A stretch of 64,000 bases of DNA from Treponema primitia ZAS-2 (GTDB lineage: Bacteria > Spirochaetota > Spirochaetia > Treponematales > Breznakiellaceae). The position numbers were made by a program, and so were the translations under genes. Where the stretch lies: assembly GCF_000214375.1 (NCBI RefSeq), contig NC_015578.1, positions 3,658,001-3,722,000 on the forward strand, given 5' to 3'. Under the pieces are notes generated by a model. It searched no databases. It was not told the DNA's origin and saw nothing but the letters and a program-made list of their open reading frames with translations. How positions within the stretch are numbered: position 1 is the stretch's first letter; the number at the start of each line of letters is the position of its first letter. Of this stretch, positions 39,390 through 62,413 are shown piece after piece.

Positions 39390-39782
39390 ATGGTTTTATC
39401 AGACGCGCCCAATGGGGCTTCCTTCAGGGTGGTTAAAGTCGCCCTGAGAAAAGAAGTCGGCAAACGTCTTGCCGATATGGGTTTTACCGAGGATGCTGAA
39501 GGTGCCGTGGTCCGTTCCGGCTTTTTCCGCGGACCCTTACAGGTGCGAATCCGGGGTTATGATATCCTAATCCGCCGTGACGAAGCCGGGGGCATTGAAG
39601 TTCTTCCGGTAGGCGACTGGTCTGCGGTGAAGGATGCCGGAAAGATCCTCCGCCGGAAAAAAATAGCTACTCGCAATGCCGACTTCAGTCGGCAAGTTCC
39701 CCGTGCGAAGCTTGAGCCCCCTCCTAAGGCTCCGGAAACTCCGGCAAAGCTCCCTGCCGAGACGTGCCATGCCGGGAAATAA
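39390..39782 (+). CDS. feoA: FeoA-type SH3-like protein with palindromic-element tail
   Basis: Small cytoplasmic partner of the ferrous iron channel. Residues 1-75 form the FeoA domain (LSDAPNGASFRVVKVA, KRLADMGFTEDAEGAVV, VRIRGYDILIRRDEAGGIEVLP). The C-terminal 40 residues are not FeoA sequence: they include [14 protein letters not shown], which is the translation of a dispersed palindromic DNA element, and a Pro/Lys-rich end. AAGGGA precedes ATG 39390. The last 14 bp overlap feoB, so expression is coupled. 130 residues is long for FeoA (about 75-90). Confidence 0.88.
   Translation: MVLSDAPNGASFRVVKVALRKEVGKRLADMGFTEDAEGAVVRSGFFRGPLQVRIRGYDILIRRDEAGGIEVLPVGDWSAVKDAGKILRRKKIATRNADFSRQVPRAKLEPPPKAPETPAKLPAETCHAGK
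39666..39710 (+). repeat. palindromic coding element, copy 1 (long form) in feoA
   Basis: GCTACTCGCAATG, hairpin CCGACTTCAGTCGG (39679-39692), then CAAGTTCCCCGTGCG. It is read in the sense orientation by feoA as [14 protein letters not shown] without breaking the frame. It is the most diverged of the long copies. Confidence 0.85.
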
Positions 39783-41934
39783 AAACACCCTGCGAATAGC
39801 CCTGGCCGGAAACCCCAATGCAGGAAAAACCACCCTGTTCAATGCCCTCACCGGGGCTCACCACAAGGTGGGGAATTACCCCGGGGTTACGGTGGAAAAA
39901 CGGGAGGGCATACGCATACGCCGGGAAAAACAGTACCATTTTATCGACCTGCCGGGTATTTACAGCCTGACCGCCTATTCCATCGACGAGGTGGTGGCCC
40001 GGGACTTTATCCTGGATGAAAAACCTGACGTTATCGTGGATGTGCTGGACTCCACCAACCTGGAACGGAACCTCTACCTCTGCCTCCAATTTCAGGAACT
40101 GGGCATCCCGGTCATCGGCGCCCTGAACATGAGCGATGAGGCGGAATCAAAGGGCATCTTTATTGACGACAAGCAGCTCACCCTGACCTTGGGCATACCC
40201 CTGGTGAAAACCGTGGGCCCCAAGGGTACCGGCGCCGAGGCGCTCCTGGACTGCATAGATCAGGTGATGGCCGTAGAAGAAGGTTCGCCGGCTAAAGCCG
40301 ACACCGGCAGCGCCAAGAGCCAAAACGCCGGGACCTCTCCGTCAGAAGCCGGCCTGGCCCTCCCGGACAAACGGCTCAGTTACGGCGCTGAGATTGAATC
40401 CCGGCTTGAGACGATTCAGGAAGCCATTGCCTCGGATACCTCCTTTGCGGCAAAGTACCCTGTCCGCTGGCTGGCGGTGAAGCTCATTGAAAAGGATACC
40501 AATGCGTACCGGCGGCTACAGGAGCATCCCCAGGCCGCTTCGATTGAAACCGCCGCGCGGGAAGCCGTGGTCTGGATCGAAAAGCACTTTGGCAAGGATG
40601 CGGAGATCATCATCTCCGAACAGCGTTACGGCTATATACGGGGGGCGGTTAAGGAATCGGTACAAATTGTCAGAAAACCCGATTTTTCCGTCACCGAGGC
40701 TCTGGACCGGGTGATCATGAACCGGTTTTTGTCATTGCCCATCTTTATCCTGGTCCTCTGGGCGGTGTTTCAGCTCACCTTCCTCCTGGGGGAATACCCC
40801 ATGGCCTGGCTGGAAGCCCTCTTTAGCCTTTTAAGCGGCGCCATCATGAATGCCATGCCCGCAGGCCTCCTGCGCTCCCTCCTGGTAGACGGGATCATAG
40901 GCGGCGTGGGGGGCGTCCTCTCCTTTGTCCCCCTGATAGTAATACTGTTTTTCCTCCTTTCGATACTGGAAGACGTAGGCTATATGTCCCGGGCGGCCTT
41001 TGCAACAGATAAACTGCTCCACAGCTTCGGCCTCCACGGCCAGTCGGTTTTCCCCATGATGCTGGGCTTCGGCTGTTCCGTCCCGGCGATCATGGCCTCC
41101 CGGACCCTGAAAAGCCCCCGGGACCGTATCCTCACCATACTCATCACCCCCATGATGAGCTGCGGGGCAAAATTGCCGGTCCATGTGCTTCTGGCAGCGG
41201 CCTTCTTCCCGAACCATGCCGCCAACGTGATCATGCTGATCTATGCCCTAGGGGTCATCCTCAGCCTCTGCTGCGCCTTTGTGCTGAAGAAAACTGTGCT
41301 CAAAGGGGACCCCACACCTTTTGTGATGGAACTGCCCCCTTACCGCTCTCCCACTCTGCGAGGCATACTCTGGCATGTGCAGGAAAAAACCTGGCTCTAT
41401 GTCAAAAAAGCGGGGACCATCATCCTGGCCTCGGCGATCCTGATCTGGGCCATCACCAGCTTCCCCGCCTACGAGCCCCCGCCGGGTTTGGCCGAAGATT
41501 CGGTCCAGGCAACAGAAGCGGCCCTGGAACACAGCTACGCCGGCCGGCTGGGCAAATTCATCGTCCCCATTTTCCGGCCCATGGGCTTTGAGTGGAAACT
41601 AGCCGCCGCCTCGGTCACTGGCTTTGCCGCCAAAGAGGTGATCGTCTCCACCCTGGGCATACTCTACCGGGTCGGGGCCGAAGAAACCGAGGAAAGCGAA
41701 GGCCTCAGAGACGCCATCAGGCAGGACCCGGACATGAGCCCCCTGGCAGCCTTTGTGTTCATGCTCTTTACCCTGATCATCCCCCCCTGTTTCGCCGCCC
41801 TGGCAACCATCAAGGCGGAAATCGGCTGGAAGTGGCTGGGATTTGAGCTGGTCTTTCTCCTGGCCCTGGGCTGGGTCCTCTGCACCATCGTTTTCCAGGT
41901 CGGGAGCTTGATTGGTTTAGGAGGCTTATTGTGA
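39769..41934 (+). CDS. feoB: ferrous iron transport protein B
   Basis: GTP-gated Fe2+ channel of the inner membrane, 721 residues. G domain: GNPNAGKTTLFNALTG (residues 13-28), HKVGNYPGVTVEKREG, DLPGIYSLTAYS, LNMSDEAE (variant NxxD). Helical GDI domain, then membrane part with Gate domains (IVILFFLLSILEDVGYMSRAAF in pieces LEDVGYMSRAAF, MLGFGCSVPAIMASR, MMSCGAKLPVHVLLAAAFF). I chose ATG 39769 because the G domain starts right after it and it overlaps feoA; the open frame to 39676 is translated element and feoA sequence. Followed by its Cys-rich partner. Confidence 0.96.
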   Translation: MPGNKNTLRIALAGNPNAGKTTLFNALTGAHHKVGNYPGVTVEKREGIRIRREKQYHFIDLPGIYSLTAYSIDEVVARDFILDEKPDVIVDVLDSTNLERNLYLCLQFQELGIPVIGALNMSDEAESKGIFIDDKQLTLTLGIPLVKTVGPKGTGAEALLDCIDQVMAVEEGSPAKADTGSAKSQNAGTSPSEAGLALPDKRLSYGAEIESRLETIQEAIASDTSFAAKYPVRWLAVKLIEKDTNAYRRLQEHPQAASIETAAREAVVWIEKHFGKDAEIIISEQRYGYIRGAVKESVQIVRKPDFSVTEALDRVIMNRFLSLPIFILVLWAVFQLTFLLGEYPMAWLEALFSLLSGAIMNAMPAGLLRSLLVDGIIGGVGGVLSFVPLIVILFFLLSILEDVGYMSRAAFATDKLLHSFGLHGQSVFPMMLGFGCSVPAIMASRTLKSPRDRILTILITPMMSCGAKLPVHVLLAAAFFPNHAANVIMLIYALGVILSLCCAFVLKKTVLKGDPTPFVMELPPYRSPTLRGILWHVQEKTWLYVKKAGTIILASAILIWAITSFPAYEPPPGLAEDSVQATEAALEHSYAGRLGKFIVPIFRPMGFEWKLAAASVTGFAAKEVIVSTLGILYRVGAEETEESEGLRDAIRQDPDMSPLAAFVFMLFTLIIPPCFAALATIKAEIGWKWLGFELVFLLALGWVLCTIVFQVGSLIGLGGLL

Positions 41935-42125
41935 ATACCATGATTGAAACCGGGGTTATTGTTGCTGTTATAGCCTTGGCAGCAGTTTTTGTGATTTTAC
42001 GGGTAGTGAAAACTTTTCGGAGTAGGCGGCCTTCCTGCTGTTCCGGGGATGGGGGGAAGGCTGTAAAAAAGGACGCTTGTCCGCATTGCGCGGGGAACTC
42101 CGTTGCAAGTAGCGCGGGGGAATAG
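41931..42125 (+). CDS. FeoB-associated Cys-rich membrane protein
   Basis: 64-residue protein with one membrane helix (about residues 5-23: VIVAVIALAAVFVILRVV) and a cytoplasmic tail with cysteines (RRPSCCSGDGG, DACPHC). Small proteins of this kind follow feoB in many bacteria and are thought to support Fe2+ uptake. It starts at GTG 41931, which overlaps the feoB stop (GTGA) behind TTAGGAGG. The last 12 residues (CAGNSVASSAGE) are encoded by a short-form palindromic element that also supplies the approach to the stop codon. Confidence 0.82.
   Translation: MNTMIETGVIVAVIALAAVFVILRVVKTFRSRRPSCCSGDGGKAVKKDACPHCAGNSVASSAGE
42088..42115 (-). repeat. palindromic coding element, copy 2 (short form) in the Cys-rich Feo gene
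   Basis: Reverse orientation: GCGCTACTTGCAACG followed by GAGTTCCCCGCGC on the minus strand, without the internal hairpin. Translated antisense to the element as CAGNSVASSAG, the same frame as copies 4, 5 and 6. Confidence 0.85.
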
Positions 42126-42287
42126 TGGCGAACTTTTTACGCCGTATATCTGTTCAGTACCTGGGGCTGATAAAGGCCTGCATAACCATCATTTCTTCAT
42201 CCATATAGTGTTTGTCTATACAAAACTCCTAAATTTCAACAAATTTCCCGGCGTTTAAAACAATTGTTTTCAGCCAATCAATGTGGA

Positions 42288-43397
42288 TTATCGTTTTCTT
42301 TGCAATATTTTAACAAACTCAATAAAACTAATTTCTTGATTAGCCAATTGGTTCAAATACTGTTCATTCCCTGAAATAAAGGCTTTGATCTGTTTCAATT
42401 CATCATCACTTAAATTGATTTCAATATCCTTTACCAATATTCGGGGATGTTCTTCAATGCTCATGGAAACCATTTTTGTACGATCTATTTTATCATCAGT
42501 ATTGGACTTAAATTTTAGTCGTTTATACTTTCCGATATTTTCCCATGCACCAATATCGTCCACTAATAGCTCTACCGGCAATCCGCTTTCCTCTTTAGAC
42601 AAGCGGCTCATATATTCCATCCGTATATTTTCAGCAATATTCTCATCTTCCGTTTGTAGCCCATTGTCCCAATAATCACCTTTACCAATGTTTTCAATAA
42701 AATGCTGATGATCGGTTTTTACTTCAACCCAAATCTCATTTATCCTCAATATATCAAACCATGAAAAAATATGACAATCCAACAATTGATGTATACCATA
42801 CCCTATATAATACTCGTCAAATTGACCGCTAAAGTACTCGCCATTCCAGTTGGTATCATCTTTCAAAAATCTTAAATATTCCGGGCCAAATCTACCATCA
42901 ATAATATCATCGGTCCATAAATATTCCGGTAGCGAGGAATACAGTACCCAGTAAATACCTTCTCCCCGCTCCGTTAATTCTCCGGTCTTATTGTCAATTT
43001 CAAGAATAAATGGCGATAACTTTATCCGAATGTTAAAATCATCCAAAAAACTATCATTTGAATTTAGTTTTTTGGTTAATTTATCATACAGTATTGCTGC
43101 TTCATCATATGCTTTCTTAAATCCGCTAATAATTTTATCGTTCAATTCAAGAAAATGCCTTTTGTTCTTTTCAGTCCAGGAAAAATGTCTATCAAGCTTT
43201 ATACGTCTTTCTAACAATATTTTTTCCAATAAGCCGGTTTCACCCTTGTTGTAATATGGATGTAGCAATTTATGATATTTACAAGCCATATCTTCAAGGT
43301 CGGTGACAGAACACATATCACGGAAATATAGACTTTTTTCTTCATAGGTTTGATTTAGCAGATTATTAAAAAAATCCCTATCATATATTTCACTCAT
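42288..43397 (-). CDS. uncharacterised protein, last gene of WYL-macro operon
   Basis: 369 residues, no signal or membrane segment. It is rich in acidic and aromatic residues. The C-terminal 60 residues are helical (LSDDELKQIKAFISGNEQYLN). A middle segment (GYGIHQLLDCHIFSWFDILRINEIWVEVK, in pieces IHQLLDCHIFSW and EIWVEVKTDHQHF) recalls proteins annotated only as hypothetical in accessory regions. I do not recognise a domain. Its ATG follows the NUDIX stop with no gap, so they are translated together. AT-rich like the whole island. The 162 bp between it and the Feo genes hold nothing that I can identify. Confidence 0.75.
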   Translation of the reverse strand: MSEIYDRDFFNNLLNQTYEEKSLYFRDMCSVTDLEDMACKYHKLLHPYYNKGETGLLEKILLERRIKLDRHFSWTEKNKRHFLELNDKIISGFKKAYDEAAILYDKLTKKLNSNDSFLDDFNIRIKLSPFILEIDNKTGELTERGEGIYWVLYSSLPEYLWTDDIIDGRFGPEYLRFLKDDTNWNGEYFSGQFDEYYIGYGIHQLLDCHIFSWFDILRINEIWVEVKTDHQHFIENIGKGDYWDNGLQTEDENIAENIRMEYMSRLSKEESGLPVELLVDDIGAWENIGKYKRLKFKSNTDDKIDRTKMVSMSIEEHPRILVKDIEINLSDDELKQIKAFISGNEQYLNQLANQEISFIEFVKILQRKR

Positions 43398-43871
43398 TCA
43401 TTTATTTACCTTACCATACTTATTTACATGAAACTTTCTAACAGCCTTCATCACGCCAAAATGAAGCGGCAAATCTTTTAGTTTGTCAAAAGTTACCCAT
43501 TTAAATTGTGAAAATTCATCAAAAGGGGTCGGGTTAATTCGTTTACCAATTTTGACCAGATATGTTTTCCAACGGAAGAACCAGAGGGCATTTATTGAGA
43601 CCACACCCGTTAAGGTATTGCCCAATTCTGACAGGATAAAACCCGTTTCTTCTTTAAATTCACGGACTGCTCCATCGTAAAAAGACTCGCCTTTTTCAAC
43701 TTTTCCGCCAGGAAACGACCATTTGCCTTTGCCGGGATTTCTTGTCCGTTTTCCAAGAAATACTGATACATTGTTAATTTCATCAACATGAAAAAGAGAA
43801 ATACCGGCGCCTTTATAACCACGAAGAAATTTTAATATACGATATAAAAACGTATGCTTGTATTTAGGCAT
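43398..43871 (-). CDS. NUDIX hydrolase
   Basis: 157-residue pyrophosphohydrolase. The Nudix box is complete: G56, E62, R70, E71, E74, E75, G77 in GGKVEKGESFYD and GAVREFKEETGF, fitting Gx5Ex7REUxEExGU. The fold begins with GAGISLFHVDEINNVSVFLGK (two pieces GAGISLFHVD, VSVFLGK). Nudix enzymes of this size act on NDP-sugars, ADP-ribose, oxidised nucleotides or capped RNA. Next to a macro-domain gene ADP-ribose chemistry is attractive but unproven. It is 87 bp behind the GIY-YIG gene and directly abuts the next gene. Confidence 0.88.
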   Translation of the reverse strand: MPKYKHTFLYRILKFLRGYKGAGISLFHVDEINNVSVFLGKRTRNPGKGKWSFPGGKVEKGESFYDGAVREFKEETGFILSELGNTLTGVVSINALWFFRWKTYLVKIGKRINPTPFDEFSQFKWVTFDKLKDLPLHFGVMKAVRKFHVNKYGKVNK

Positions 43872-43958
43872 TAGTGCGTCTCCTTTTACAGTAAGAAAAA
43901 TCTAAGTATAAGTACTACCCATCACGAAAATATTGTTCAAAAACATCCCTAGCCTCTT

Positions 43959-44798
43959 TTATTGCAATTCTTTCATTGTTTTACCATTGTTGTTTTTCCA
44001 CACATCTTGACCATTTACAGTTGAACCCAAAATAATGGATGCTGGCTGACTAGGACTACTGAAAATTGTGTTCTCTGTAAATTTATATTGGTCGTTTTCA
44101 AATACTAAAATACCGGCATCAATTAATTTTTCTCGATTCTTTTTGTATATAAATGAAGCTGTTACATCCTTACATACAGTAGAATCCTTTAGGACAATAT
44201 AATGATTATTTTCAATAACCATTCTTGCATAAATTCCTTTCGTTTTATTGTCAATGATAAAAGTATTAGTTTCCAGAATTATCTGTGCAGTAGTCGGTGA
44301 TAGACATAAAAACCCACATAATGGTAAAACCATTTTTAGTTGTCTGATGAATTCATCGACAATACTTTCATCGGCAAGTGATAAAGTTGAGAGCGTTGGT
44401 TTTGTCGCATTAAATATCTTAGAGTTTTTTGCCGAGTCAGATAACTGATAAAGCTTTGACTCCATGTTTTTTATATGCGCTTTTGTGAGCTCACCATCTT
44501 TAGTCGAAACAACAACAATGCATTCCTTAAATTCCAGCTTATCAGTTTTTAGATGTTGATTTAGTCTTTCCCGTAAAATTTCTGCCTCACCGATATACAC
44601 ACTATCAGAAAAATTGACATCATCACTATCATAACGTAATATATAAACGCCTGGATTTTCCAATTCTTTTCTTTCAAGCCATTCTGTAATACAGGCAATG
44701 GGCGAATATAACACCACCATTGACGAGCCACCAATGTCAATAATCTTTGGGCTATTTTCCGTATCATCCATTTGAAAGATTGTCACTTTTTTAGCCAT
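43959..44798 (-). CDS. GIY-YIG nuclease-domain protein with C-terminal DUF4357
   Basis: 279 residues. N-terminal GIY-YIG domain: GVYILRYD (residues 50-57), VYIGEAEILRERLNQH (67-82) with the catalytic arginine, and a likely catalytic Glu in NMESKLY. The C-terminal segment SSPSQPASIILGSTVNGQDV then KNNNGKTMKEL matches DUF4357, which is often fused to GIY-YIG or restriction-like proteins. It likely cleaves DNA or acts as a regulated nuclease. A strong AAGGAGG precedes ATG 44798, 12 bp after the upstream gene. Activity and target are unknown. Confidence 0.82.
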   Translation of the reverse strand: MAKKVTIFQMDDTENSPKIIDIGGSSMVVLYSPIACITEWLERKELENPGVYILRYDSDDVNFSDSVYIGEAEILRERLNQHLKTDKLEFKECIVVVSTKDGELTKAHIKNMESKLYQLSDSAKNSKIFNATKPTLSTLSLADESIVDEFIRQLKMVLPLCGFLCLSPTTAQIILETNTFIIDNKTKGIYARMVIENNHYIVLKDSTVCKDVTASFIYKKNREKLIDAGILVFENDQYKFTENTIFSSPSQPASIILGSTVNGQDVWKNNNGKTMKELQ

Positions 44799-44810
44799 TT
44801 CAATTCCTCC

Positions 44811-45653
44811 TTAATCCAGTACCCATCCGGCTTTTACCATTTCATGAACATCAGAATAATATTCCACATTCTCATCTTTGTCAACAACGGTATAAACACG
44901 GTTCAACGCATTAACCAGAGTAATATGCCCGTAAGTCCCATCATTGCGTTTCAGCATGACTCTACTCCTGGTCTCTAAGTCAACACCAAAAACAAGGTCG
45001 GGCAAATCATTTAATGTCCTTTTGATGACTTCATCACTCCACGGCCAGATTTCTTTTGGCTTGGGTGGCGGCTCTTTCAAATTCTCGTAGGAAGCTTCAA
45101 GATCACCGGAATTCACCTTGATATATATTCCAATCATATTATCAAAGGTGGTAAGAATTTCCTCATAGTCAATGTCGTTTAATTTGACAGCCTTTCCAAT
45201 GAAAATCGCTTCTACACCATCAGACGTTTTATTATTGATTTTCTGCACCTGGGTAATATCTACTATACTTCGATTTACTTCACGCCACATCGTATAATCA
45301 GAAAACAAATCAGGTGATTTATCATATAGCTTGTTAAAACTTTTATAACATTTTTTTAATTTAGGATCGTCTCTACGGAATGCATACATCCCTTTGTTTT
45401 GCAAAGGAAAAGATAAGCCGTACCAAAGTCTATCGGTACTATCAAGGGAAAGGCTAAACATAAAATCACGATGGCCTCCAAAAAGCAGTACCCAATTTCC
45501 CCACCATTGGAGAGTATCTTCGCTAATTAAAAAAAGGCGCTGAATTGCTTTTTTCCCCTGTAGTCCCATCTTGTACCGTATTACTTGAATCTCTCCAATG
45601 CGGTGAGTTTTTGCCTTTTCGTTCAGGATTTCACCTATTTGCGTAATCTTCAT
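44811..45653 (-). CDS. uncharacterised protein coupled to the macro-domain gene
   Basis: 280 residues, soluble. N-terminal part: IQVIRYKMGLQGKKAIQRLFLI followed by an aromatic-rich block (TLQWWGNWVLLFGGHRDFMFSL; both quoted in part: KKAIQRLFLI, WWGNWVLLFGGHRDF). A proline-rich linker (KEPPPKPKEIWPW) separates a small C-terminal domain that ends VHEMVKAGWVLD. I do not recognise a family. ATG 45653 has AAGGAGG and starts 10 bp after the macro-gene stop, so the two are made together; an open frame to 45731 would overlap that gene. It may be the effector or sensor of the module. Confidence 0.78.
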   Translation of the reverse strand: MKITQIGEILNEKAKTHRIGEIQVIRYKMGLQGKKAIQRLFLISEDTLQWWGNWVLLFGGHRDFMFSLSLDSTDRLWYGLSFPLQNKGMYAFRRDDPKLKKCYKSFNKLYDKSPDLFSDYTMWREVNRSIVDITQVQKINNKTSDGVEAIFIGKAVKLNDIDYEEILTTFDNMIGIYIKVNSGDLEASYENLKEPPPKPKEIWPWSDEVIKRTLNDLPDLVFGVDLETRSRVMLKRNDGTYGHITLVNALNRVYTVVDKDENVEYYSDVHEMVKAGWVLD

Positions 45654-45663
45654 CTTTTCCTCC

Positions 45664-46242: not shown

Positions 46243-46357
46243 TAATGAAATCCTCCTAAGAATTCGCAACATCGGTTTCTTTTTAAGACAAAAACCTATT
46301 TATCAGAACAATATATCTTTCAATAGCGCCTTACTTTTATTTTTCAAACTCTAATTT

Positions 46358-47389: not shown

Positions 47390-47416
47390 TTGGCAATCCT
47401 CCTCTTTATAGTTGAA

Positions 47417-47811: not shown

Positions 47812-47844
47812 AATTGAAAGCACAATTAAACCAGGTGAGGACGA

Positions 47845-50285: not shown

Positions 50286-52994
50286 TCATTTTCCGTCAAC
50301 CGACTCCAGTATCTCCAGGGCCCGCTTAAATTCAAACTCCTGCATTTGCTGAATCAGCTCCCCACCTTCCTTGAGCGGAAAGCTTGCGCGTATTTCGTCA
50401 ATCAGCTTAAGGCTCCCGGCATTCCCCGCCGCCAGCAAAGGCCTGAGCCGCCCCGCCAGTTCCCGTATCTTCACCGGGTCCGCTACTTGCAACGCCGACT
50501 TTAGTCGGAGAGTTCCCCGCCCAGGGGGCTCCCCGATCAAAGCCGATGCCGGAAATTCCTCCGTAAAGGCGCCATCCCCGCCGCTACCGGCCCCTTTTCT
50601 GTCTCCCGCCGGAATCAGGGTATCCAGCTCTTTCAATACTGCGGCGAATTCCGCTCCCGCCTGTACCATCAGTTTTTCTGCCGCACTGGGATTCTTCTCG
50701 GCCAGGGCTTTCTCAATCTCAGAAGAAAGCTGCCGCAACCGGCCGGCGCCAATGAGGCCGGCGGTGCTTTTCAGGGTATGGGCCAAGCGATGGGCCAGGG
50801 GCATATCCCCGGTTTCCAGGGCAGTGCGTATCTTTACTATGTCATCGCCATGTTCCTTGCGGAAACTAAGCAGAAGCTGATTGTAGAGTTCTTCGCTTCC
50901 CCCAATATCGCTGACCGCCTTATCCCGGTCAATGACAGCAACACTTTCCACTGCGGAAACAGGAGCAGCAGGTTTTGCGTCACTGCTATGGATTTCAACC
51001 CAGGTGCATTTGCCCGGGGGCAGCCACTTTTCAAGCTTTCGGTTAAGTTCCGCAGCGTCAATAGGCTTGGAAATAAAGTCATTCATCCCCCCGGCAAGGA
51101 AACTCTCCCTGGCCCCGGAAACGGCGTTGGCTGTAAGGGCGATGATGGGCATTTTCCTTAGCCAGGGATCCTCCATGGAACGGATACATTTGGTCGCTTC
51201 AATACCGTCCATACCGGGCATCATGTGATCCATAAAAACCAAATCGTAGTTTCTCTCTGACACCTTTGCTATAGCCTCATCGCCGCTTTCGGCGGTTTCC
51301 GCATGGATATCGTGGGTGGCCAGAAAAGCCAGGGCAACCTTGAGGTTTATCCGGTTGTCGTCTACCACAAGCACTTTGACATCTCCGGTAGCCTTAATCT
51401 GTGCGTTCAGGCCCTTCCGTTCAATCCGCTCAGGGTCCCCCGGAACCAGGGGCAGCAAAACTGTAAATGCCGATCCAGCGCCGTATTCGCTTTCAAAAGA
51501 GATTTCCCCGCCCATCATGGTGACTAGGTTTTTGGTGATCGCCAGCCCCAGGCCTGTGCCCACAATGCCCCTGTTACGATCGCTGTCCAACTGCTGGAAA
51601 TTCCCGAACAGCTTAGGAAAGTCCTCTTTCTTGATGCCGATCCCCGTATCCTTTACGGTAAAGACAAGATAGTCCTTGCCATCCTTTGCCGTAACGTCCA
51701 CCGTAAAGTCAACATAGCCCTGACGGGTATACTTGATAGCGTTGTTAATAATATTGGTAAGTATCTGGCGAAGTCGCACATCATCGCCGTAGATAATCTG
51801 CGGGACCCTGGAGGTGAAGGAATGGCGGAAATCCAGGTCTTTGGACTGGGCGGTGAAGCGGCTCATGGAAGCGATATTATCGTAGAGTTCCATCAGGTTA
51901 AAATGCACCGGGGACAGTTCCATCTTCCCCACTTCGATCTTTGAAATGTCCAGCACATCGTTGATGATCTGCAGCAGGGCCTTGGACATCTTCTTGATGT
52001 CCGTAAAAAAATCCCGCTGGGTGTCGTCCAGGTTGTCGGTACGCATGAGATCGCTCATGCCGATGATGGCGTTCATGGGGGTGCGGATCTCGTGGCTCAT
52101 GGAAGCCAGGAAGCGACTTTTGGCCTCAGAAGCGACCTGGGCGGCCCGGGTCTCCACTTCCAGTTCCCTGCCACGTTCATCCGCCTGGTGCAGCAGGTCC
52201 TCGGACTCCTTGAGCTTTCGCAAGTCCCGGGTATAAGCTACTACCCGGTAGTCATCCTGCCAGGCAACCCGGACCAGGATTACTTCGGCAGGGATAAACT
52301 CACCCTTACTGCTGCGGTGCATCCATTCAAATTCCAGACGCTTCCCGGTGCGGTAGGTTTCAGCTATTTCCCGGGATATACGCTCGTTGCTTATGGAGCC
52401 GTCCATTTGGATGAACACAGAAAATCTGCTGAACCCTTCTATGAGTTCCTTTTTTGTCGAAACGTCAAAAAGTTTCAAAGCCTCCTGGTTACAGTCCAAT
52501 ATATTCCCACCGGCATCCCAAAAGGTGCAGGCCAGGGGGGTAGCATCGAACATTACCTTGATCCGGTCATTGGATTCAGCTTGAAGCAGTTCTGTTATAT
52601 CATGGTAGATAACCAGGACCCCGTCAAAGTTGTCCCCTTCATCCAGAATAGGGGTACTGTTGATACTGTAACTGCGACTGTACCCTTTGCCGGTAAAATC
52701 AATGCGGGCAGTATCAGTGATAGTTTTATTGCCCTGTTTGACCCGGGCAAAGCGATCCAGGGATTGTTCCAGAAAGACCGGATCGCCAAAGAAGGCATAC
52801 ACCTCATCAAAAAAACGCCCGCGTATGCTGATAAAGTCGTTTATCCCGGCAAGTTCCAGAAAGGCATTGGAGCAGTAAAGGAAGCGGCCTTCCGCATCCA
52901 GGAGGAGGATCACATCAGGGCTGTTTTCCAGCATCAGGGAGAGGTACTTTCCCTGCTTTTCCCAGATACGCCGCTGTTCTCCTTCGTTGGTCAA
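50286..52994 (-). CDS. cytoplasmic hybrid sensor histidine kinase (PAS-PAS-HisKA-HATPase-REC-HPt)
   Basis: 902 residues without membrane helices. Two PAS domains (about 15-135 and 140-260), a coiled-coil, the H-box SMSHEIRTPMNAIIGMSDLM (about 295-315), ATPase motifs N (NIINNAIKYT), G1 (DTGIGI) and G2 (GTGLGLAI), a receiver (VLVVDDNRIN and VFMDHMMPGMDG with the phospho-Asp) and an HPt domain (AHRLAHTLKSTAGLIG). The C-terminal 100 residues are an extra helical segment interrupted by GEPPGRGTLRLKSALQVAD, which is translated palindromic element. A phosphorelay ending in an unlinked regulator is expected. No response regulator lies adjacent. Confidence 0.93.
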   Translation of the reverse strand: MTNEGEQRRIWEKQGKYLSLMLENSPDVILLLDAEGRFLYCSNAFLELAGINDFISIRGRFFDEVYAFFGDPVFLEQSLDRFARVKQGNKTITDTARIDFTGKGYSRSYSINSTPILDEGDNFDGVLVIYHDITELLQAESNDRIKVMFDATPLACTFWDAGGNILDCNQEALKLFDVSTKKELIEGFSRFSVFIQMDGSISNERISREIAETYRTGKRLEFEWMHRSSKGEFIPAEVILVRVAWQDDYRVVAYTRDLRKLKESEDLLHQADERGRELEVETRAAQVASEAKSRFLASMSHEIRTPMNAIIGMSDLMRTDNLDDTQRDFFTDIKKMSKALLQIINDVLDISKIEVGKMELSPVHFNLMELYDNIASMSRFTAQSKDLDFRHSFTSRVPQIIYGDDVRLRQILTNIINNAIKYTRQGYVDFTVDVTAKDGKDYLVFTVKDTGIGIKKEDFPKLFGNFQQLDSDRNRGIVGTGLGLAITKNLVTMMGGEISFESEYGAGSAFTVLLPLVPGDPERIERKGLNAQIKATGDVKVLVVDDNRINLKVALAFLATHDIHAETAESGDEAIAKVSERNYDLVFMDHMMPGMDGIEATKCIRSMEDPWLRKMPIIALTANAVSGARESFLAGGMNDFISKPIDAAELNRKLEKWLPPGKCTWVEIHSSDAKPAAPVSAVESVAVIDRDKAVSDIGGSEELYNQLLLSFRKEHGDDIVKIRTALETGDMPLAHRLAHTLKSTAGLIGAGRLRQLSSEIEKALAEKNPSAAEKLMVQAGAEFAAVLKELDTLIPAGDRKGAGSGGDGAFTEEFPASALIGEPPGRGTLRLKSALQVADPVKIRELAGRLRPLLAAGNAGSLKLIDEIRASFPLKEGGELIQQMQEFEFKRALEILESVDGK
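50482..50520 (+). repeat. palindromic coding element, copy 3 (long form) in the hybrid kinase gene
   Basis: GCTACTTGCAACG, hairpin CCGACTTTAGTCGG (50495-50508), then AGAGTTCCCCGC. The gene is on the opposite strand and reads it as RGTLRLKSALQVA, a different frame from the other copies, yet still open. It sits in the linker after the HPt domain. Confidence 0.85.
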
Positions 52995-54401: not shown

Positions 54402-54404
54402 GTT

Positions 54405-55472: not shown

Positions 55473-55563
55473 ACCGTTCCTTTACCATTCATGGGGGTGA
55501 TAGCTGCCCTCTGACTCACTGTAGCAACTCTGCGCTGTGAATAGGCGCAGTAATGCTCCGTAT

Positions 55564-57447
55564 TTAAAGAGTTTTTGCAAGTTTTACAAATTCCTCCACC
55601 CGTTCCGCAATAAGGGCAATGCCCCCCTGCCAGAAAGCGCCATCCTCAATGTCGAAGCCCGCAGACTTGGCCACATCCACGGCGGAAGCCTGCCCGGTGA
55701 GCCTCAGCATCTTCCGGTACCCGGAGGCAAAACCCGTCTTGCCCCCGGCTAATCCCTGGCCTTCTTTCTTTGCCCGGGCAAAAAGACCCAGGGAAAAAAG
55801 CTGCCCAAAAGCGTAGGGGTAATTGTAAAACGCCAGGCCTGGATTGTAATAGTGGCTTTTTACCGCCCACATATAGGGGTGGAGCTGCTCCGGGTCCAGT
55901 CCGTCACCATAAGTCTTTTTCTGGGCATCGATCATCAGGGCGCAAAGTTCCTCCGCCGGCAATTCACGGTTTTCCCGCTGCTCAAAGAGGGCCTGCTCAA
56001 AGTAGAACCGGGAAAGTATGTCCACGATTACCTGACAGCAGTCCTTGAGGTTCCCCTCAATAAGCCCGACCCGTTCATGATCATCAGTAGCGTTGCCCAG
56101 GGCGCCCTCAAAGATGATGGTCTCAGCAAAGATGCTGGCGGTCTCAGCCAGGGTCATGGGATAGGCCGCCTGAAAGCGGTTTAGATCCTTGATCAGCTCG
56201 TGGTGCCAGGCATGGCCCAATTCGTGGGCCACCGTAAAGACCGAGTCGAAGGACCCCTCGAAGTTGCAAAGTATCCGGGATTCGCCCCGGGGCAATTCAC
56301 CGGGGTGGCCTGCCAGGGGAAAATCGGTACAGTAGGCCCCGCCGATCTTGCCCTCCCGGCCCAGGGCGTCTATCCAGGACGAATCGACCGCCCGCCGGGC
56401 AAAGGCCCCCATATCCGGGTCAAAGGCGCCGAATTGTTCAATGATAAATTCCGTTGCCCCGGTCCAGGTCCACTTTTTGGTAATACCTCCGACTGGGGCA
56501 AAAAGGTCGTAGAAAGCACAACTTGCAACGCAGTTCCCCGCGCAGGACTTGAGCCCCAGCAGGGAAGCCTTGGTTTTAAGGTAGCGCCGGAAAACCGGGA
56601 GGGACCCTTCCATGGCGACGATAAGCGCACCCAGGGCCTTTTCGCTCACCCGGGACTGGAAGGCTGATTTTTGCAGTATCGATTTCCATCCCCGCCGTTT
56701 ACCCACAGTCAGGGAGCTGCCCTTAACGCCGTTCAAGGATGAAGCTAAGGGTATTTTCATGGAAGCCCAGGCTTCAAGCTCTGCCCGGTAAGCCCGTTCC
56801 CGCACTTTCCGGTCCGGGCTGTGGGCCAGGTCCCGCAGGGCTATCACGGTCTTTCGCTCCCCGGTGTCCCGGTCCCACAAAGCCGTTGCGGTGGAGGAAA
56901 CCGCCTCCTGGAGCCGGCCCCAGGCATCTCCCCCGGACCGGGCAAGATCATTGGCCAGATCCTCCAGTTCAGGGCTCATCTGGTAGGCGGCTTTTTCCAG
57001 GCTCTCCCGAATAAAAAAATCAAAGGGTTTCAGAGCCGGCTCCGTATCCAGGGCCTTCAAAACCCTATCCTTAGCCTCCGCAAGGCGGTTCCGAAAAATC
57101 ACCGCCCCCTTCCCCAAAGGCAGGGCCGCCGCATCAATGGCATTTATCTCCGCCAGAGCCCGGCTATCCCGGGTATCGGCGGTGTAGATCGCCTCCGCAT
57201 AGGCGGAAAGGTTCTCGTTCAGGTTCCCCGCCTCCTCATAGACCCCTATCAGGGCAAGCAGGGCCGCCGCAATCCCCGATTCGGGCAGGGGCGTTCCCAG
57301 CAATTGCAAAAAAGCTGCGATCTTCCCCTTCAGCAGTTCCAAGTCCCGCCGATATTCCGGTGAGTCAAAGGAGGGGTAAATCGTTGTAAGGTCCCACTTT
57401 GGGAGGGCTTCCGTTTGGGCATCTCCGGTTTTAATACCACTGGGCAT
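55564..57447 (-). CDS. pepF: oligoendopeptidase F family metallopeptidase (M3B)
   Basis: Cytoplasmic zinc peptidase cleaving oligopeptides. Zinc site HELGHAWHHELI with the downstream Glu ligand in MTLAETASIFAETI; N-terminal helical domain begins PKWDLTTIYPSFDSPEY. About 627 residues. ATG 57447 is six bases behind GGGAGG; ATG 57453 would abut it. The start overlaps ndk by 17 bp. Between GLKS and FYDLFAPVG, which are contiguous in the family, ten residues CAGNCVASCA are inserted and correspond to a short-form palindromic element. Confidence 0.93.
   Translation of the reverse strand: MPSGIKTGDAQTEALPKWDLTTIYPSFDSPEYRRDLELLKGKIAAFLQLLGTPLPESGIAAALLALIGVYEEAGNLNENLSAYAEAIYTADTRDSRALAEINAIDAAALPLGKGAVIFRNRLAEAKDRVLKALDTEPALKPFDFFIRESLEKAAYQMSPELEDLANDLARSGGDAWGRLQEAVSSTATALWDRDTGERKTVIALRDLAHSPDRKVRERAYRAELEAWASMKIPLASSLNGVKGSSLTVGKRRGWKSILQKSAFQSRVSEKALGALIVAMEGSLPVFRRYLKTKASLLGLKSCAGNCVASCAFYDLFAPVGGITKKWTWTGATEFIIEQFGAFDPDMGAFARRAVDSSWIDALGREGKIGGAYCTDFPLAGHPGELPRGESRILCNFEGSFDSVFTVAHELGHAWHHELIKDLNRFQAAYPMTLAETASIFAETIIFEGALGNATDDHERVGLIEGNLKDCCQVIVDILSRFYFEQALFEQRENRELPAEELCALMIDAQKKTYGDGLDPEQLHPYMWAVKSHYYNPGLAFYNYPYAFGQLFSLGLFARAKKEGQGLAGGKTGFASGYRKMLRLTGQASAVDVAKSAGFDIEDGAFWQGGIALIAERVEEFVKLAKTL
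56517..56544 (+). repeat. palindromic coding element, copy 4 (short form) in pepF
   Basis: CACAACTTGCAACG followed by CAGTTCCCCGCGCA, no internal hairpin. The minus-strand gene reads it as CAGNCVASCA. It interrupts a conserved block of the peptidase, so the insertion boundary is visible at the protein level. Confidence 0.88.
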
Positions 57448-57874
57448 TGCCATCCTCCCATTCAATAATCTCTTCGGGCTTGAAAAACAGGGCTATTTCC
57501 CGTGCCGCGCTGGCCGGGGAATCTGAGGCGTGGACAATATTGAGCCTGGTCCGGTAGGCGTAATCCCCCCGGATGGTTCCGGGCAGGGATTCCCGGGTAT
57601 CAGTGGGCCCCACCAGGCGGCGTACTGCGGCAATCCCATCCTCCCCCTCCAAAATCATGGCCACCACGGGCCCTGAGAGGGTATAGGCCAGGAGCTTTTC
57701 GTAAAAATCCTTCCCCTTATGCTCGGCATAATGGGCCTCTACCATGGCGGTATCCATTTGTAGCAGCTTCAGGGCAATAAGCTTAAGCCCCTTCCGTTCA
57801 AAGCGGCTCAATACTTCCCCCACAATCCGCCGCTGCAGGACCCCGGGTTTTAGCATAACAAAGGTCTTTTCCAT
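57431..57874 (-). CDS. ndk: nucleoside diphosphate kinase
   Basis: Transfers the terminal phosphate of ATP to NDPs via a phospho-histidine. The protein starts MEKTFVMLKPGVLQRRIVGE, has the RLVGPTDTRESLPGTIRGDY block and the active-site histidine in NIVHASDS, ends with the usual IEWEDGNAQWY. 147 residues is normal. No standard ribosome binding site is obvious before ATG 57874. Overlaps the start of pepF, so both are in one transcript. Confidence 0.96.
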   Translation of the reverse strand: MEKTFVMLKPGVLQRRIVGEVLSRFERKGLKLIALKLLQMDTAMVEAHYAEHKGKDFYEKLLAYTLSGPVVAMILEGEDGIAAVRRLVGPTDTRESLPGTIRGDYAYRTRLNIVHASDSPASAAREIALFFKPEEIIEWEDGNAQWY

Positions 57875-57933
57875 AAGAGTAAGTGTAATGTATAAGAAAT
57901 ATTTTTCATAGATTCGTATTTAAAGGCGGATAC

Positions 57934-59775
57934 TCATTTTCTCACCAAACATTCGGCCCCGTTCCCTATCAGGTCCTCCCGGCCCGCCATACGTAGCGCT
58001 TCCAATACCAGGGCTTTCTGCTCAGCATGGTTGAACTGCAATAGGGCCCGCTGAAGCCGTTTCTCCCGTTCACCCCGGGGCACAGAAATACTTTCCATGG
58101 TCCGGGGGTCCAGGCCGGTATGGTACATCACTGTAGACAATGTTCCCGGGCTTGGGTAGAAATCCTGGACCTGGTCCGGCACAAAGTGGCTCTTTTTCAT
58201 AAACAGGGCCAGCTCCACAGCGTCCGCCAGGCTTGAGCCGGGGTGGCTGGAAATAAAGTAGGGGATCAGGTACTGCTTCAGCCCCAGCCGCCGATTTGTT
58301 TCTGCATAGTCTTCCCGGAATTTTTCGTAGGTTTCAGCTTTTCCTTTCCCCATAGCGGCCAGTACCCCAGGCGTTATATGTTCCGGTGCAACTTTGAGCT
58401 GTCCGCTGACATGGTACTTGCAGAGGGTTTCCAGGAATTCCTGCCCCGACTGTGTATCCAGTTCCAGATAGTCAAAGCGGATGCCGGATCGGATAAACAC
58501 TTTTTTAACGGTGTCAATATTCCGCAGGGCAGTCAGGGTTTCGATATAGGGCCGGTGATCCGCCTTTAGCTGGGGGCAGGGCTTGGGGTAAAGGCACTCT
58601 TTTTCCGGGCAGAACCCGCCCTTAGCCTGTCGCTTACAGGGGGCACGGTAAAAGTTGGCCGTGGGCCCTCCCACATCGTGGATATAGCCCTTAAAGTCCC
58701 GGTGACGGGCCAGGGTTTCCGCTTCCCGGACCAGGCTTTCCCGGCTTCGGGAACTTATGGCCCGGCCCTGGTGGGAAGTGATGGCGCAGAATGAACAGCC
58801 CCCGAAACAGCCCCGGCTTGAGACCAGGGAAAACTGCACCTCTTTCAGGCCAGGGATACCCCCGGCTGCATCGTACATGGGGTGAGCCCGGCGCTGATAG
58901 GGAAGTTCGTAAATGCTATCCAGTTCAGGGGCAATAAGGGGAAAGGCCGGGGGATTCTGGATCACCCAGCGGTCCCCATCGGATTTCTCCGCCAGGGGCT
59001 TTGCGGTTTGAGGATCCCCCTGGAGCTTTTGCAGCATGAAGTGTTCCGCATAGGCCCGCAAAGACCCGGGATCGGCGCCCTTAACCGCCTCGTAGTCCGG
59101 GAGCCGCACGCAAGCGGCTATCTCCGGCGGCTGGCCGTGGGAACGGACGCAGGTACCCCGGACATCCCGGATGGTGGAAACCGGCTCCCCCTTTTGGAGG
59201 CGCCGGGCAATCTCTAGGATCGGCCGCTCCCCCATGCCGTAGACCAGGATGTCTGCCTTGGAATCCAGCAGTATTGAGCGGCGCACCGTATCGGACCAAT
59301 AATCGTAGTGGGCAAAACGACGGAGACTGGCCTCGATACCCCCGATGATCACCGGTATGTCCTTATAAGCAGCCCGGATGCATTCTACGTATTTCAGGGT
59401 AGCCCGGTCAGGGCGGAAACCTGCTTTGCCGCCGGGAGAATAGGCGTCTTCGGAGCGGGGCTTCCGGGCGGCAGTGTAGTGGGCCATCATGGAGTCCATG
59501 GCGCCTGGGCCGACAAGAAATCCCAGCCTGGGACGGCCTAAGACGGTGTAGGATTCGGGGGTTTTCCAGTCCGGCTGAGGTATAACACCAACCCGGAAAC
59601 CCTGGGCTTCAAGGTAGCGTGAGACAAGAGCAACGGCAAATGAGGGATGATCCACATAGGCGTCGCCGGAAATGAAGATAAAATCACAGGATTCCCAGCC
59701 CCGCCCCTTCATTTCTTTGGAATTTACAGGGAGAAACCGGGAATTTTCAGGCCTGCCGAGGATTTTAGACCCCAA
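57934..59775 (-). CDS. ygiQ: YgiQ-family radical SAM protein
   Basis: 613 residues, UPF0313/YgiQ family. N-terminal domain with CDFIFISGDAYVDHPSFA and GGIEASLRRFAHYDYW, radical SAM core with RGCFGGCSFCAITSHQGR (CxxxCxxC), followed by CxxxxxCLYPKPCPQ-type extra cysteines (GGFCPEKECLYPKPC). The exact reaction is unknown. The start overlaps the end of the NifU-like gene by 11 bp, which suggests coupled expression and fits the need for iron-sulfur cluster delivery. Confidence 0.93.
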   Translation of the reverse strand: MGSKILGRPENSRFLPVNSKEMKGRGWESCDFIFISGDAYVDHPSFAVALVSRYLEAQGFRVGVIPQPDWKTPESYTVLGRPRLGFLVGPGAMDSMMAHYTAARKPRSEDAYSPGGKAGFRPDRATLKYVECIRAAYKDIPVIIGGIEASLRRFAHYDYWSDTVRRSILLDSKADILVYGMGERPILEIARRLQKGEPVSTIRDVRGTCVRSHGQPPEIAACVRLPDYEAVKGADPGSLRAYAEHFMLQKLQGDPQTAKPLAEKSDGDRWVIQNPPAFPLIAPELDSIYELPYQRRAHPMYDAAGGIPGLKEVQFSLVSSRGCFGGCSFCAITSHQGRAISSRSRESLVREAETLARHRDFKGYIHDVGGPTANFYRAPCKRQAKGGFCPEKECLYPKPCPQLKADHRPYIETLTALRNIDTVKKVFIRSGIRFDYLELDTQSGQEFLETLCKYHVSGQLKVAPEHITPGVLAAMGKGKAETYEKFREDYAETNRRLGLKQYLIPYFISSHPGSSLADAVELALFMKKSHFVPDQVQDFYPSPGTLSTVMYHTGLDPRTMESISVPRGEREKRLQRALLQFNHAEQKALVLEALRMAGREDLIGNGAECLVRK

Positions 59776-59989
59776 CGACCGCCTTAACTTCGGGGATTTC
59801 CTTCTTTAGGTAGTTTTCAATCCCCATTTTAAGGGTCATCTGGGCCATAGGGCAGGAACCGCAGGCTCCGGTCAGCTTCAGGGAAACGGTCCCATCATCG
59901 GAAAGGGACACAAATTCCACATCCCCACCGTCATTCTGGAGGGAAGGGCGGACATTGTCCAGGGCGAGCTTAACTTGTTCTTCGAGCAT
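59765..59989 (-). CDS. NifU-like iron-sulfur scaffold (C-terminal domain type)
   Basis: 74-residue Nfu protein consisting only of the NifU C-terminal domain, with the cluster motif CGSC at C43 and C46 (GACGSCPMAQMTLKMGIE). It carries or transfers [4Fe-4S] clusters. GGAG precedes ATG 59989. It overlaps the radical SAM gene that follows, a likely client. Confidence 0.93.
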   Translation of the reverse strand: MLEEQVKLALDNVRPSLQNDGGDVEFVSLSDDGTVSLKLTGACGSCPMAQMTLKMGIENYLKKEIPEVKAVVGV

Positions 59990-60076
59990 GGTAATCTCCT
60001 ATTATTTATATGTTCCTTATAATATACTATAAATTAACAATATAAACTAATTAAGTATACATTTTTTTAAAGTCCA

Positions 60077-60105
60077 TTGAAAGAGTGGTTCAGAAGGTTT
60101 ACTAT
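60077..60105 (+). promoter_or_regulatory. promoter candidate for phosphofructokinase
   Basis: TTGAAA (60077-60082), 17-bp spacer, TACTAT (60100-60105), 75 bp before ATG 60180. Surrounding sequence is AT-rich as expected for a strong promoter. Confidence 0.5.
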
Positions 60106-60179
60106 ATTATTATAACATAATCGTGAATAGCCGATCCCCGGCATGGGGCGGAAATAATTTGGGAAACAGGGAGCATCTA

Positions 60180-61538
60180 ATGAGTGAAAGTCTTGATTTC
60201 ACAATTGAAGAGCTTGGAAACCGTAATATCCATTCACCTATCGCTATGTCCAAGACTTACGGTGATTTAATCGCGAATTATGTGCGGGACGACGAGTTTG
60301 TCGTGATTAAACCCCAGGTAAGCCTGGGGGAACAGCCGCCCCTTAAACGAAGCGATGTCCTGGAATTAGCCGGGCCCCGGGAAATGATCTACTTTACCCC
60401 CCACCACGTGCATGCGGGGATTGTAAGCTGCGGCGGCCTCTGCCCGGGGATCAACGACGTCATCCGGGCCATTGTGCGCTGCCTGGTCCGCTACGGGGTA
60501 ACCCGGATTTCCGGCATCCGCTTCGGGTATAAGGGCTTCCTGCCCGAGTACCACTTCGATGTCATTCCCCTGGACCAAAAGAACGTGGATGATATCCACA
60601 AGCTGGGTGGTACCTTTCTGGGGAGCGCCCGGGGTGGCGGCAAAGAAGTCGAAAAAATTGTGGATGCCATGGAACAGCTCAACATGAACGTGCTCTTTAC
60701 CATAGGCGGGGATGGAACCCAGCGGGGATCCCTGGATATTGCCAATGAAATTGAAAAGCGGGGGCTCAAGATAGCCACTGTGGGTATCCCCAAAACGGTG
60801 GATAACGACTTTTCCTTTATAGAACGTTCATTCGGTTTCGACACTGCGGTCTCCAAGGCGGTAGATGTGGTAACCGCCGCCCACATGGAGGCTGTTTCTG
60901 CGATCAACGGTATAGGCCTGGTAAAGGTTATGGGTCGGGAATCGGGCTTTATCGCCGTGCATACCGCCCTGGCCAGCCATGAAGTAAATTTCGTGCTCAT
61001 CCCTGAAGTACCCTTTGACCTGGAAGGTCCCAATGGCTTCTTCCATCACCTGGAAATGCGCCTGCAACGGCGAAACCACGCGGTGATCGTCATCGCCGAA
61101 GGTGCCCTGCAGGATCAGCTGATAAAGGAAGTCAAAACCGATGCAGGTGGAAACGTTAAGATGGAAGATGTGGGCTCCTATATGCGGGATCAGATACAAA
61201 AATATTTCAGCGACAAAAAAATCGAAATCAACCTAAAGTACATCGATCCCAGCTACATTATCCGTTCAGCCCCTGCCTCACCGGTAGATTCCATCTACTG
61301 CGAACGGCTAGGCAATGCCGCTGCCCACGCAGCCATGGCGGGAAAAAACAAGTGCATCATCGGCCTGGTAAACGGCGAATTTGTGCACCTCCCCACCAAG
61401 GTTGCTGTTTCCCAGCGCAACCATGTGGACCCCGAGGGCAGCCTCTGGCGGGATTGCCAGGATGCGACCCAGCAGCCGGTGATCATGCTAAACAATTACC
61501 AAAGCGAAGGCTTTACCGCCGAATATAATTTTAGCTAA
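60180..61538 (+). CDS. 6-phosphofructokinase (spirochaete/trypanosomatid-type)
   Basis: Glycolytic kinase making fructose-1,6-bisphosphate, about 452 residues. It resembles the long PFK clade that includes Treponema TP0108 and trypanosomatid enzymes. Motifs: [27 protein letters not shown], and [21 protein letters not shown] (as GIPKTVDND), then [14 protein letters not shown] (Gly where PPi-dependent enzymes carry Asp) argues for ATP as donor, while the Lys in PKTVDND is the PPi-type residue. ATG 60180 has GGGAG upstream; the frame opens at GTG 60123. Monocistronic. Donor specificity is uncertain. Confidence 0.92.
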
Positions 61539-62413
61539 CTGAGGGCTATGGTGTGGGCCTTGCCAAAGGGATGGAAGGTTCCATACAAAACATCCGGCTC
61601 GTCGCCGCTCATGGATTCTCCGGGATGGATGGACAGGGTGGTTACCATCCCGTCACTGTGGGTAATGGCGAGTTTGTCAAAGCTGCGGATTAGGCCGTAA
61701 TACAGGGCCTGAAAATTATGGTCCAGTTCCGAAAGCGTATCCTCCCCCAGAGTTGACCTATCTTGTAGGAAACGGATGATCACCCGGCATTCTGCCATGG
61801 CCTCTTCCTGCCGTATCAGGGGGGCAAAGTCCAGACTGGTATGAATGGTCCGCATGATGCCCAGGAGCAGGGGGTTTATTGCCGTATCACACGAATAGTG
61901 TTCCCCCGCCGGCTTATACCAGCGGAAAATAGCTTTTCTAACCGCGCTGCGGCTCATCATAAAATTATTCCGGTAAAAAGAATCATCATAATCTTCAAGC
62001 CCCTCATCAAAAAAGGTGTTGAAGTCATCCTTGCCGATTTTATTATAGATATCAAAATTGGTCTGATCAAAAACAAAATCTTCAAACCCCGCCTCAGGCT
62101 TGGCTTTCTTAAAATCCAGCTTGCTCAGCTCCGAATAGACCACCCGGATCCTGGCATAGCGCCGGTCAAGCCGCCGCCGCACAAGCCCCGGCGCCCCGGC
62201 AGGATAAGACGTTCCAGCACTGCTCGCGCCACTTGCAACTCCGACTTTAGTCGGCAAGTTCCCCGCGCTACTTGCAACGAAGTTCCCCGCGCACAGTTCC
62301 GCTATGTCCGCCAATACCGGCGTTTCCTCCCGCACCCCCGCAGGCATAGCTTTCAGAAGCCTGAGGAATTGAGCTACCAGGGAATCCTTTGATTCCATGT
62401 CAGCAGCGCTCAT
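61535..62413 (-). CDS. uncharacterised protein carrying two tandem palindromic elements
   Basis: About 292 residues, soluble. Conserved-looking body from about residue 75: [53 protein letters not shown] and [14 protein letters not shown] near the end. I do not recognise the family. Residues 41-68 ([24 protein letters not shown] in part) are the translation of two tandem elements in the N-terminal linker. ATG 62413 overlaps the methyltransferase gene end; ATG 62398 right behind its stop is an alternative. Its stop overlaps the convergent pfk stop by four bases. Confidence 0.75.
62228..62293 (+). repeat. palindromic coding elements, copies 5 (long) and 6 (short) in tandem
   Basis: Copy 5 (62228-62268) has CCACTTGCAACT, hairpin CCGACTTTAGTCGG and CAAGTTCCCCGCGC. 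Copy 6 (62267-62293) follows directly as GCTACTTGCAACG with AAGTTCCCCGCGC and no hairpin. Both are read by the minus-strand gene in the same frame ([11 protein letters not shown] and [10 protein letters not shown]), the two forms differing by exactly 15 bases. Confidence 0.9.

Follow-up and report, generated by a model that had tools for sequence, protein, structure and literature searches.

The window analyzed here, a 64,000-nucleotide stretch at positions 3,658,001–3,722,000 of the single 4,059,867-base contig of Treponema primitia ZAS-2, a spirochaete probably from a termite gut, carries six units of a short repeated DNA element at five places. All six are real members of one family, and each lies inside an open reading frame (ORF). 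The original prediction had listed six copies at these places, and all are present; their coordinates shift by a few bases because the unit is defined here as N...GCGC. The units and their host genes are as follows, in window coordinates.

39390..39782, + strand: host FeoA gene (Pfam FeoA, E 3e-16; FeoA domain at residues 1–71)
39668..39706, + strand: 39-nt unit of the long form, degenerate, lying in frame within the FeoA C-terminal tail
41931..42125, + strand: host ORF of 64 amino acids with a GTG start, overlapping the stop of the preceding ORF (presumed feoB)
42088..42111, − strand: 24-nt unit at the C-terminal end of the 64-residue ORF
50286..52994, − strand: host histidine kinase / response regulator / Hpt gene (Pfam)
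50484..50522, + strand: 39-nt unit, with the host reading the opposite strand (RGTLRLKSALQVA)
55564..57465, − strand: host gene of peptidase family M3 / oligopeptidase F (Pfam)
56520..56543, + strand: 24-nt unit on the strand opposite to the host, host peptide CAGNCVAS
61535..62449, − strand: uncharacterized host gene, no Pfam match
62230..62268, + strand: 39-nt unit, first of a head-to-tail pair
62269..62292, + strand: 24-nt unit, second of the pair, directly behind the GCGC end of the first

The name feoB for the ORF ahead of the 64-residue ORF is presumed from the neighboring gene. The 64-residue ORF itself is Cys-rich and membrane-like by eye, had no match in a Pfam search, and can be given a putative product only. 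An Rfam search of the window returned one tRNA and nothing else.

These six units belong to a large family. In the 4.06-Mb genome, the core pattern TTGCAAC-gap-AGTTCCC is matched exactly 91 times and a reversed-pattern control not once, and a position weight matrix (PWM) scan of 738 kb of fetched DNA with a cut-off of 20 bits found 181 units and no control matches. Searches with a sequence model and a covariance model, the genome-wide check proposed with the original prediction, gave 157 and 123 matches, respectively, at E up to 1. Filtering the PWM matches by score (at least 20) and chosen gap classes reduced 187 units to 177, four matches (38262, 2106188, 507012, and 1080472) being removed by hand. 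The 177 units occupy 143 places in the fetched DNA, of which 119 are single, 17 double, and five triple, with one place of four units and one of five.

The short unit is 24 nt long and reads NAC-TT(G/C)C-A(A/G)C-GNA-G(T/C)T-YCCC-GCG(C/G). It contains a 3-bp stem with a GNA loop but does not form an extended palindrome (DNA fold z +0.88). In the 39-nt and longer forms, the GNA loop is replaced by a 14-nt hairpin (CCGACTTYAGTCGG) that adds 15 nt each time, and the unit length follows 24 nt + 15n inside and outside genes alike. The label "palindromic" used in the original prediction suits the forms of 39 nt and above, with their 14-nt hairpin, better than the 24-nt form, whose stem is 3 bp long. 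With the gap left free between 0 and 24, 62 units of 24 nt and 27 of 39 nt make up 89 of the 91 exact matches. In the PWM scan, which adds 3 bits for expected gaps and so mildly favors lengths of 24, 39, 54, and 69 nt, gaps of 2, 17, 32, and 47 were found in 130, 38, 5, and 1 of the 187 units, placing 174 in these four classes. Since 37 of the 39 units outside genes also fall into the 24 + 15n classes, the length rule belongs to the element and not only to selection in each gene. The exact 14-nt hairpin occurs 49 times in the genome, mostly within units; one copy has no unit ends (1267482–1267495), three stand in a row behind a left half only (2385824–2385867), and two further copies among those read have a right half only.

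In a collection of 84,980 species genomes, which may omit the window's own, the long pattern matched 46 stretches, all in Treponema except three single matches elsewhere, which were rejected as chance; the one in Opitutaceae does not fit the unit. Exact matches occur in nine of 291 genomes of the order: 95 in the window's genome, 48 in genome G085, 27 in Treponema sp. Marseille-Q4130, 23 in T. socranskii paredis, seven in T. socranskii socranskii, three in the metagenome-assembled genome Crp329_bin9, two in G189, and one each in G207 and G251. Short units turned up in 11 of the same 291 genomes in a degenerate search. The T. socranskii group keeps the guide (the bases 5′ of the stem), stem, spacer, and end but has a different inner hairpin and mostly a 37-nt unit, a length that is not a multiple of three. 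There, 13 of 54 units lie in a stop-free span of at least 300 amino acids (spans, not gene calls), and units sit within repeats of ~150–450 bp that are common to loci and species (L109–L126, L132–L169).

Insertion falls exactly between a GCGC-like tetranucleotide and an A, the tetranucleotide lying on the 5′ side of the unit. Flanks were counted at the 136 of 143 places where all units score at least 25 bits: the left host flank is mostly (G/C)CGC, with C in 97% at −1, G in 83% at −2, C in 77% at −3, and G in 62% at −4, and the right host base +1 is A in 90%. There is no target-site duplication, as the left tetranucleotide equals the right in one of 81 sites with a non-GCGC left flank. Members of the IS200/IS605 family are likewise not known to duplicate their target on insertion. 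A miniature inverted-repeat transposable element, defined by terminal inverted repeats and a target-site duplication, was rejected for want of the latter. With the target rebuilt by the GCGC at the 3′ end of a unit, and with A still at the end of arrays, an existing unit can receive a further one behind it, head to tail.

Copies of the hairpin with unusual ends revealed a rarer subfamily, TTCC-AGC-GNA-GCT-YCCC-GCGG, in which three changes go together: TTGC to TTCC in the guide, GCGC to GCGG at the 3′ end, and C to G in the adjoining host base. Among 26 units read from fetched examples, TTGC is always found with a GCGC end (21 units) and TTCC with a GCGG end (five), and the stems AAC/GTT, AGC/GTT, or AGC/GCT occur in either guide background. 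A set of 240 contexts, which counts some loci twice under two names, has the guide/end combination G-C in 216, C-G in 13, and another in 11; 229 therefore fit, and the exceptions are mostly single mutated units. In an alignment of 59 distinct 24-nt units, limited to at most 20 common-type rows from the window's genome, the guide-end pair is GC in 45, CG in 10, GU in 2, and another in 2, and the stem pair is AU in 46, GC in 9, and GU in 4, a pattern of compensatory changes. Both the covariation score and the paired cells of this alignment exceeded all 500 shuffles and every slid register. The host DNA follows the same rule: in non-tandem units with the T. socranskii group left out, guide-G units have C as the −1 host base in 90 of 95 cases, and guide-C units have G there in 7 of 10 (P 1.8e-8; one of the ten guide-C sites is not an element). 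Because the flank belongs to the host, dispersed sites are largely separate observations. This joint variation points to a guide 5′ of the hairpin that would pair both with the target and with the 3′ terminus of the unit itself. The hairpin also has physical precedents, since GNA loops with any N give very stable DNA mini-hairpins (PMC4686876); the element's GNA loop with its free N, and the GCGAAGC of some units of the rarer subfamily, match those described there (PMC4686876).

Relatives document the empty sites. Of 100 host proteins, 39 had a match in 845 kb of related DNA, mostly from one same-genus genome, and 23 alignments span a unit site. Twenty-two of them, from 19 proteins, concern real elements, and in 22 of 22 the relative lacks the peptide; no orthologue carries the same residues at the same place, the pattern of ordinary protein conservation that the original prediction had named as its counter-case. 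The alignment left out concerns the low-scoring match at 1265678, which is kept among the 177 units but is not a real element (its orthologue aligns gap-free), and at 20 further sites the relative's match did not span the unit. Net gaps range from 8 to 38 residues, equaling the element exactly in three cases and exceeding it where linkers differ. In DeoC, eight residues are absent in five and nine in two of seven relatives, and eight are absent in PDB 8qps; the extra residues 132–139 lie at the end of helix 118–134 and in the loop before strand 145–151 in an AlphaFold model (mean pLDDT 87.9). RelA/SpoT carries a three-unit, 34-residue array behind its HD domain that is absent in four relatives. 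The paralogous loci 1399000–1399600 and 2868650–2869250 have nearly identical flanks, but the first locus of the two or its counterpart holds 54 + 24 = 78 nt of element where its partner holds 39 nt, from which it follows that unit number changes recently and in multiples of three. From these sequence comparisons, mobility can be taken as established in the sense of an insertion history, not of an observed reaction.

Within the fetched DNA, 109 of the 143 places lie within called genes, 31 outside, and 3 partly, so the copies are not mainly intergenic, the case that the original prediction had named as refuting it. The simple home-made caller used to define genes overlooked at least one host gene in the window: the copy at 42088 counts as outside genes, yet it sits in the small ORF absent from the calls. 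With coding sequence making up 86% of the fetched DNA, the share of places in genes shows no bias of insertion toward them. Intragenic copies are read in all six frames, on both strands, and add 8, 13, or 18 residues for 24, 39, or 54 nt. Of 39 host proteins scanned with Pfam, 34 matched, and the hosts include PurL, MutS, MutL, DnaX, RecG, a UvrD-like helicase, and DNA polymerase B, as well as RelA/SpoT, PrmC, a PBP, GH94, DeoC, PAP2, FeoA, and several kinases, names such as PurL being our reading of the Pfam domains.

Insertion preserves the reading frame. At 52 places that are clearly coding on both sides on one strand, a set for which openness of the unit itself was not required, 49 keep the same frame with no stop in the unit, and three, all near gene ends, change it. 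The remaining places comprise one with coding on opposite strands, 57 with one side coding, 25 with neither, and one too near an edge. Among 1310 random control sites, 691 were same-frame and 28 changed-frame. The earlier statement that every copy lies in a gene without breaking its frame thus holds for the six window units and has to be relaxed genome-wide, given the 31 places outside called genes and the three frame changes. Stops are avoided: none is seen at the 49 same-frame sites, where 5.5 would be expected if units were dealt randomly (P of none 2e-4). This 49-site comparison is the fair one, since eight intragenic units in the stop-prone frame had been picked as open frames. Two frames, LLATKFPA on the same strand and RGTSLQVA on the opposite strand, account for 61 of the 109 intragenic places. 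Frame use overall departs from the phase of the target sites under all four target patterns tried, on which the expectations depend: LLATKFPA is over-used and RGELRCK under-used under all four, and RGTSLQVA is over-used under two. The skew of LLATKFPA and RGELRCK suggests selection on the added peptide. The use of six frames, the 22 empty sites, and the 49 preserved frames support the original view of a DNA element tolerated in coding sequence. An ordinary conserved protein motif was rejected, and its chances are negligible, because the element is read in six frames on both strands and its residues are absent from relatives.

We consider it somewhat better than an even bet that the element is a very small non-autonomous transposable element of the single-strand IS200/IS605/REP type, with a basic form of 24 nt. 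A guide dinucleotide (GC or CC) 5′ of the 3-bp GNA-loop mini-hairpin would have two pairing partners: the final two bases of the target, which lie in the left host flank, and the final two bases at the 3′ end of the unit itself. The element would insert exactly 3′ of the target tetranucleotide, before A, with no target-site duplication, and because its end equals the target tetranucleotide, the target would be recreated and further units could insert behind it, head to tail. Longer forms would arise by the addition of 15-nt hairpins on the mini-hairpin. The frame would be kept on insertion because 24, 39, and 54 are multiples of three, and selection would then remove insertions that bring stops and skew the surviving frames. 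The sequences themselves document the family, its lengths, its exact insertion and target preference, the joint changes of guide, end, and flank, the compensated stem, the kept frames, and the avoided stops. We infer single-strand transposition, with mobilization in trans by a Y1 (HUH) enzyme, perhaps one of the RAYT-like proteins of this genome or one since lost. A bolder formulation, for and against which we see the case as evenly balanced, holds that the GNA mini-hairpin and the two-base guide make up a self-contained 24-nt transposable unit, that its specificity has been switched in nature from GCGC to GCGG by matching changes of guide and 3′ end, and that its 24 + 15n lengths make it a built-in, frame-preserving peptide-insertion mutagen of treponeme proteins.

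Several findings weigh against single-strand transposition under a guide. Neither an autonomous copy nor a linked enzyme was found. A Y1 search of 20 genomes matched seven, namely the window's genome (three genes), G004, Crp329_bin9, G085 (with stops), Treponema sp. Marseille-Q4130, G061, and G073; the last two have Y1 genes yet no exact element match, and no Y1 gene was found in T. socranskii paredis, despite its 23 exact copies, or in T. socranskii socranskii. No unit lies beside any of the three RAYT-like Y1 genes of the window's genome, and two of these (L211:1206–1977 and L216:1298–2020) are flanked by palindromes of their own (GGTGCCAGGCACC and GGTGACTGTCACC), which leaves RAYT as a proven mobilizer unsupported. 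Single-strand elements are expected to show a replication-strand bias (PMC6006769), and none is seen in orientation, with 41+/30− in the first half of the genome and 40+/25− in the second, the origin being assumed at coordinate 1. The guide pairing comprises two bases, the second of which never varies in the unit and agrees with the flank in 43 of 59 rows. Each helix has only one varying pair, related rows can beat shuffles without structure, and two of the five measures, pairs changed on both sides and the count of pair types, did not rise above shuffles. The guide/end change may have arisen once or twice only, and 14 of 54 T. socranskii-group units combine guide G with flank G. ViennaRNA gave no stable fold for the 24-nt form, with parameters that may not credit GNA loops. 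Units are more alike within arrays (95%) than between them (89%), so copying in place also contributes.

Some side observations concern the same genes and units. The two RAYT-like Y1 genes with their own palindromes are each followed by similar ORFs, phage-like by eye, and belong to a separate system resembling REP or terminal inverted repeats. In Treponema sp. Marseille-Q4130, a Y1 fragment (L213:2133–2366) lies ~0.4 kb from an array of about seven units; it is the only Y1 gene seen near the element and a possible exception to the finding that no RAYT gene is flanked by it. Many of the 14 misfitting units of the T. socranskii group, with a TTGC guide and a GCGG flank, share one larger repeat.

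Known systems offer partial parallels. IS608 inserts 3′ of a tetranucleotide that stays behind as the left flank, guides located 5′ of its hairpins pair with the cleavage sites, and the identity of the +1 base is important (PMC5934647). Exact insertion 3′ of a left-flank target, a guide 5′ of a hairpin, and a +1 preference are common to our element and to the IS200/IS605 members IS608 and ISDra2 with their non-autonomous derivatives, as described in the same source (PMC5934647). The element differs in having one hairpin instead of two ends, a total of 24 nt, no tnpA, and a target identical to its 3′ end sequence, and in showing neither a replication-strand bias nor, in our searches, an autonomous relative. 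With REPs mobilized by RAYT/TnpA-REP, it shares a short single hairpin behind a guide-like tetranucleotide, a high copy number, and the presence of some copies within genes (PMC3733652, PMC8266576), but it has no fixed GTAG/CGTC, is mostly intragenic, and forms head-to-tail arrays, and the RAYT genes here are not flanked by it. Membership in the GTAG/CGTC REPs was rejected because the tag is not fixed; a reverse-strand GTAG appears only when N is T, in 47% of first units. CGTC-tagged repeats have been reported in Spirochaetes, in a main text that does not name Treponema (PMC3733652). Rickettsia palindromic elements (RPEs) share in-frame insertion into many unrelated protein genes and are described in the cited account as ~150 bp long (PMC10969869), in contrast to 24 nt + 15n with no long palindrome in the basic form. 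In-frame intragenic REPs and RPEs were thus already known (PMC3733652, PMC10969869). The likeness to RPEs drawn in the original prediction extends to in-frame insertion into genes, while the closest mechanistic parallel is the guide pairing of IS200/IS605 and REP. In keeping with the original prediction, literature searches judged by title and abstract, one of them by the best 8 of 43 records, and covering few subscription journals, turned up no paper on such an element in treponemes.

Guide pairing must be weighed against a selfish short repeat of the RPE or CGTC-REP sort, its sequence read directly by some enzyme and its guide/end covariation no more than hitchhiking in two lineages. Such a repeat, which we regard as possible if unlikely, would account for the like behavior in coding genes and the lack of a dedicated transposase, and for the T. 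socranskii-group units that break the guide/flank rule. The hosts include replication and repair genes (MutS, MutL, DnaX, RecG, UvrD-like), as reported for intragenic REPs of other species (PMC3733652). However, the host flank base is not inherited with the element and nevertheless tracks the guide base in non-tandem units when the T. socranskii group is left aside, guide state and stem state are not coupled, and neither a GTAG nor a CGTC tag is fixed.

The head-to-tail arrays, the greater likeness of units within them, and the paralogous pair with 78 and 39 nt in nearly identical flanks would all suit a minisatellite that grows by slippage in place and spreads by gene conversion without any transposition. 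Against this, 119 of the 143 places hold a single unit, so copies are not confined to local arrays; only one distant pair among the 143 loci shares long flanks; and single insertions are absent from relatives. We hold a minisatellite to be quite improbable. A shade less probable still is a host function of the peptides or DNA sites, kept by positive selection. The dominance of two frames and the departure of frame use from target-site phase would agree with it, but purifying selection that removes stops and disfavored frames is an equally simple account of the bias, only two of the four target patterns show RGTSLQVA enriched, the hosts are unrelated, and their relatives lack the unit.

If the single-strand, guide-directed interpretation is true, the element would be a very small unit whose mode of insertion is readable from its sequence, the natural switch of specificity serving as evidence. 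Called genes, among them MutS, MutL, DnaX, RecG, RelA/SpoT, PurL, and DeoC, hold about a hundred natural in-frame insertions, and these would provide a ready data set on where proteins tolerate eight or more extra residues. The finding would also bear on how intragenic palindromes of the Rickettsia type spread.

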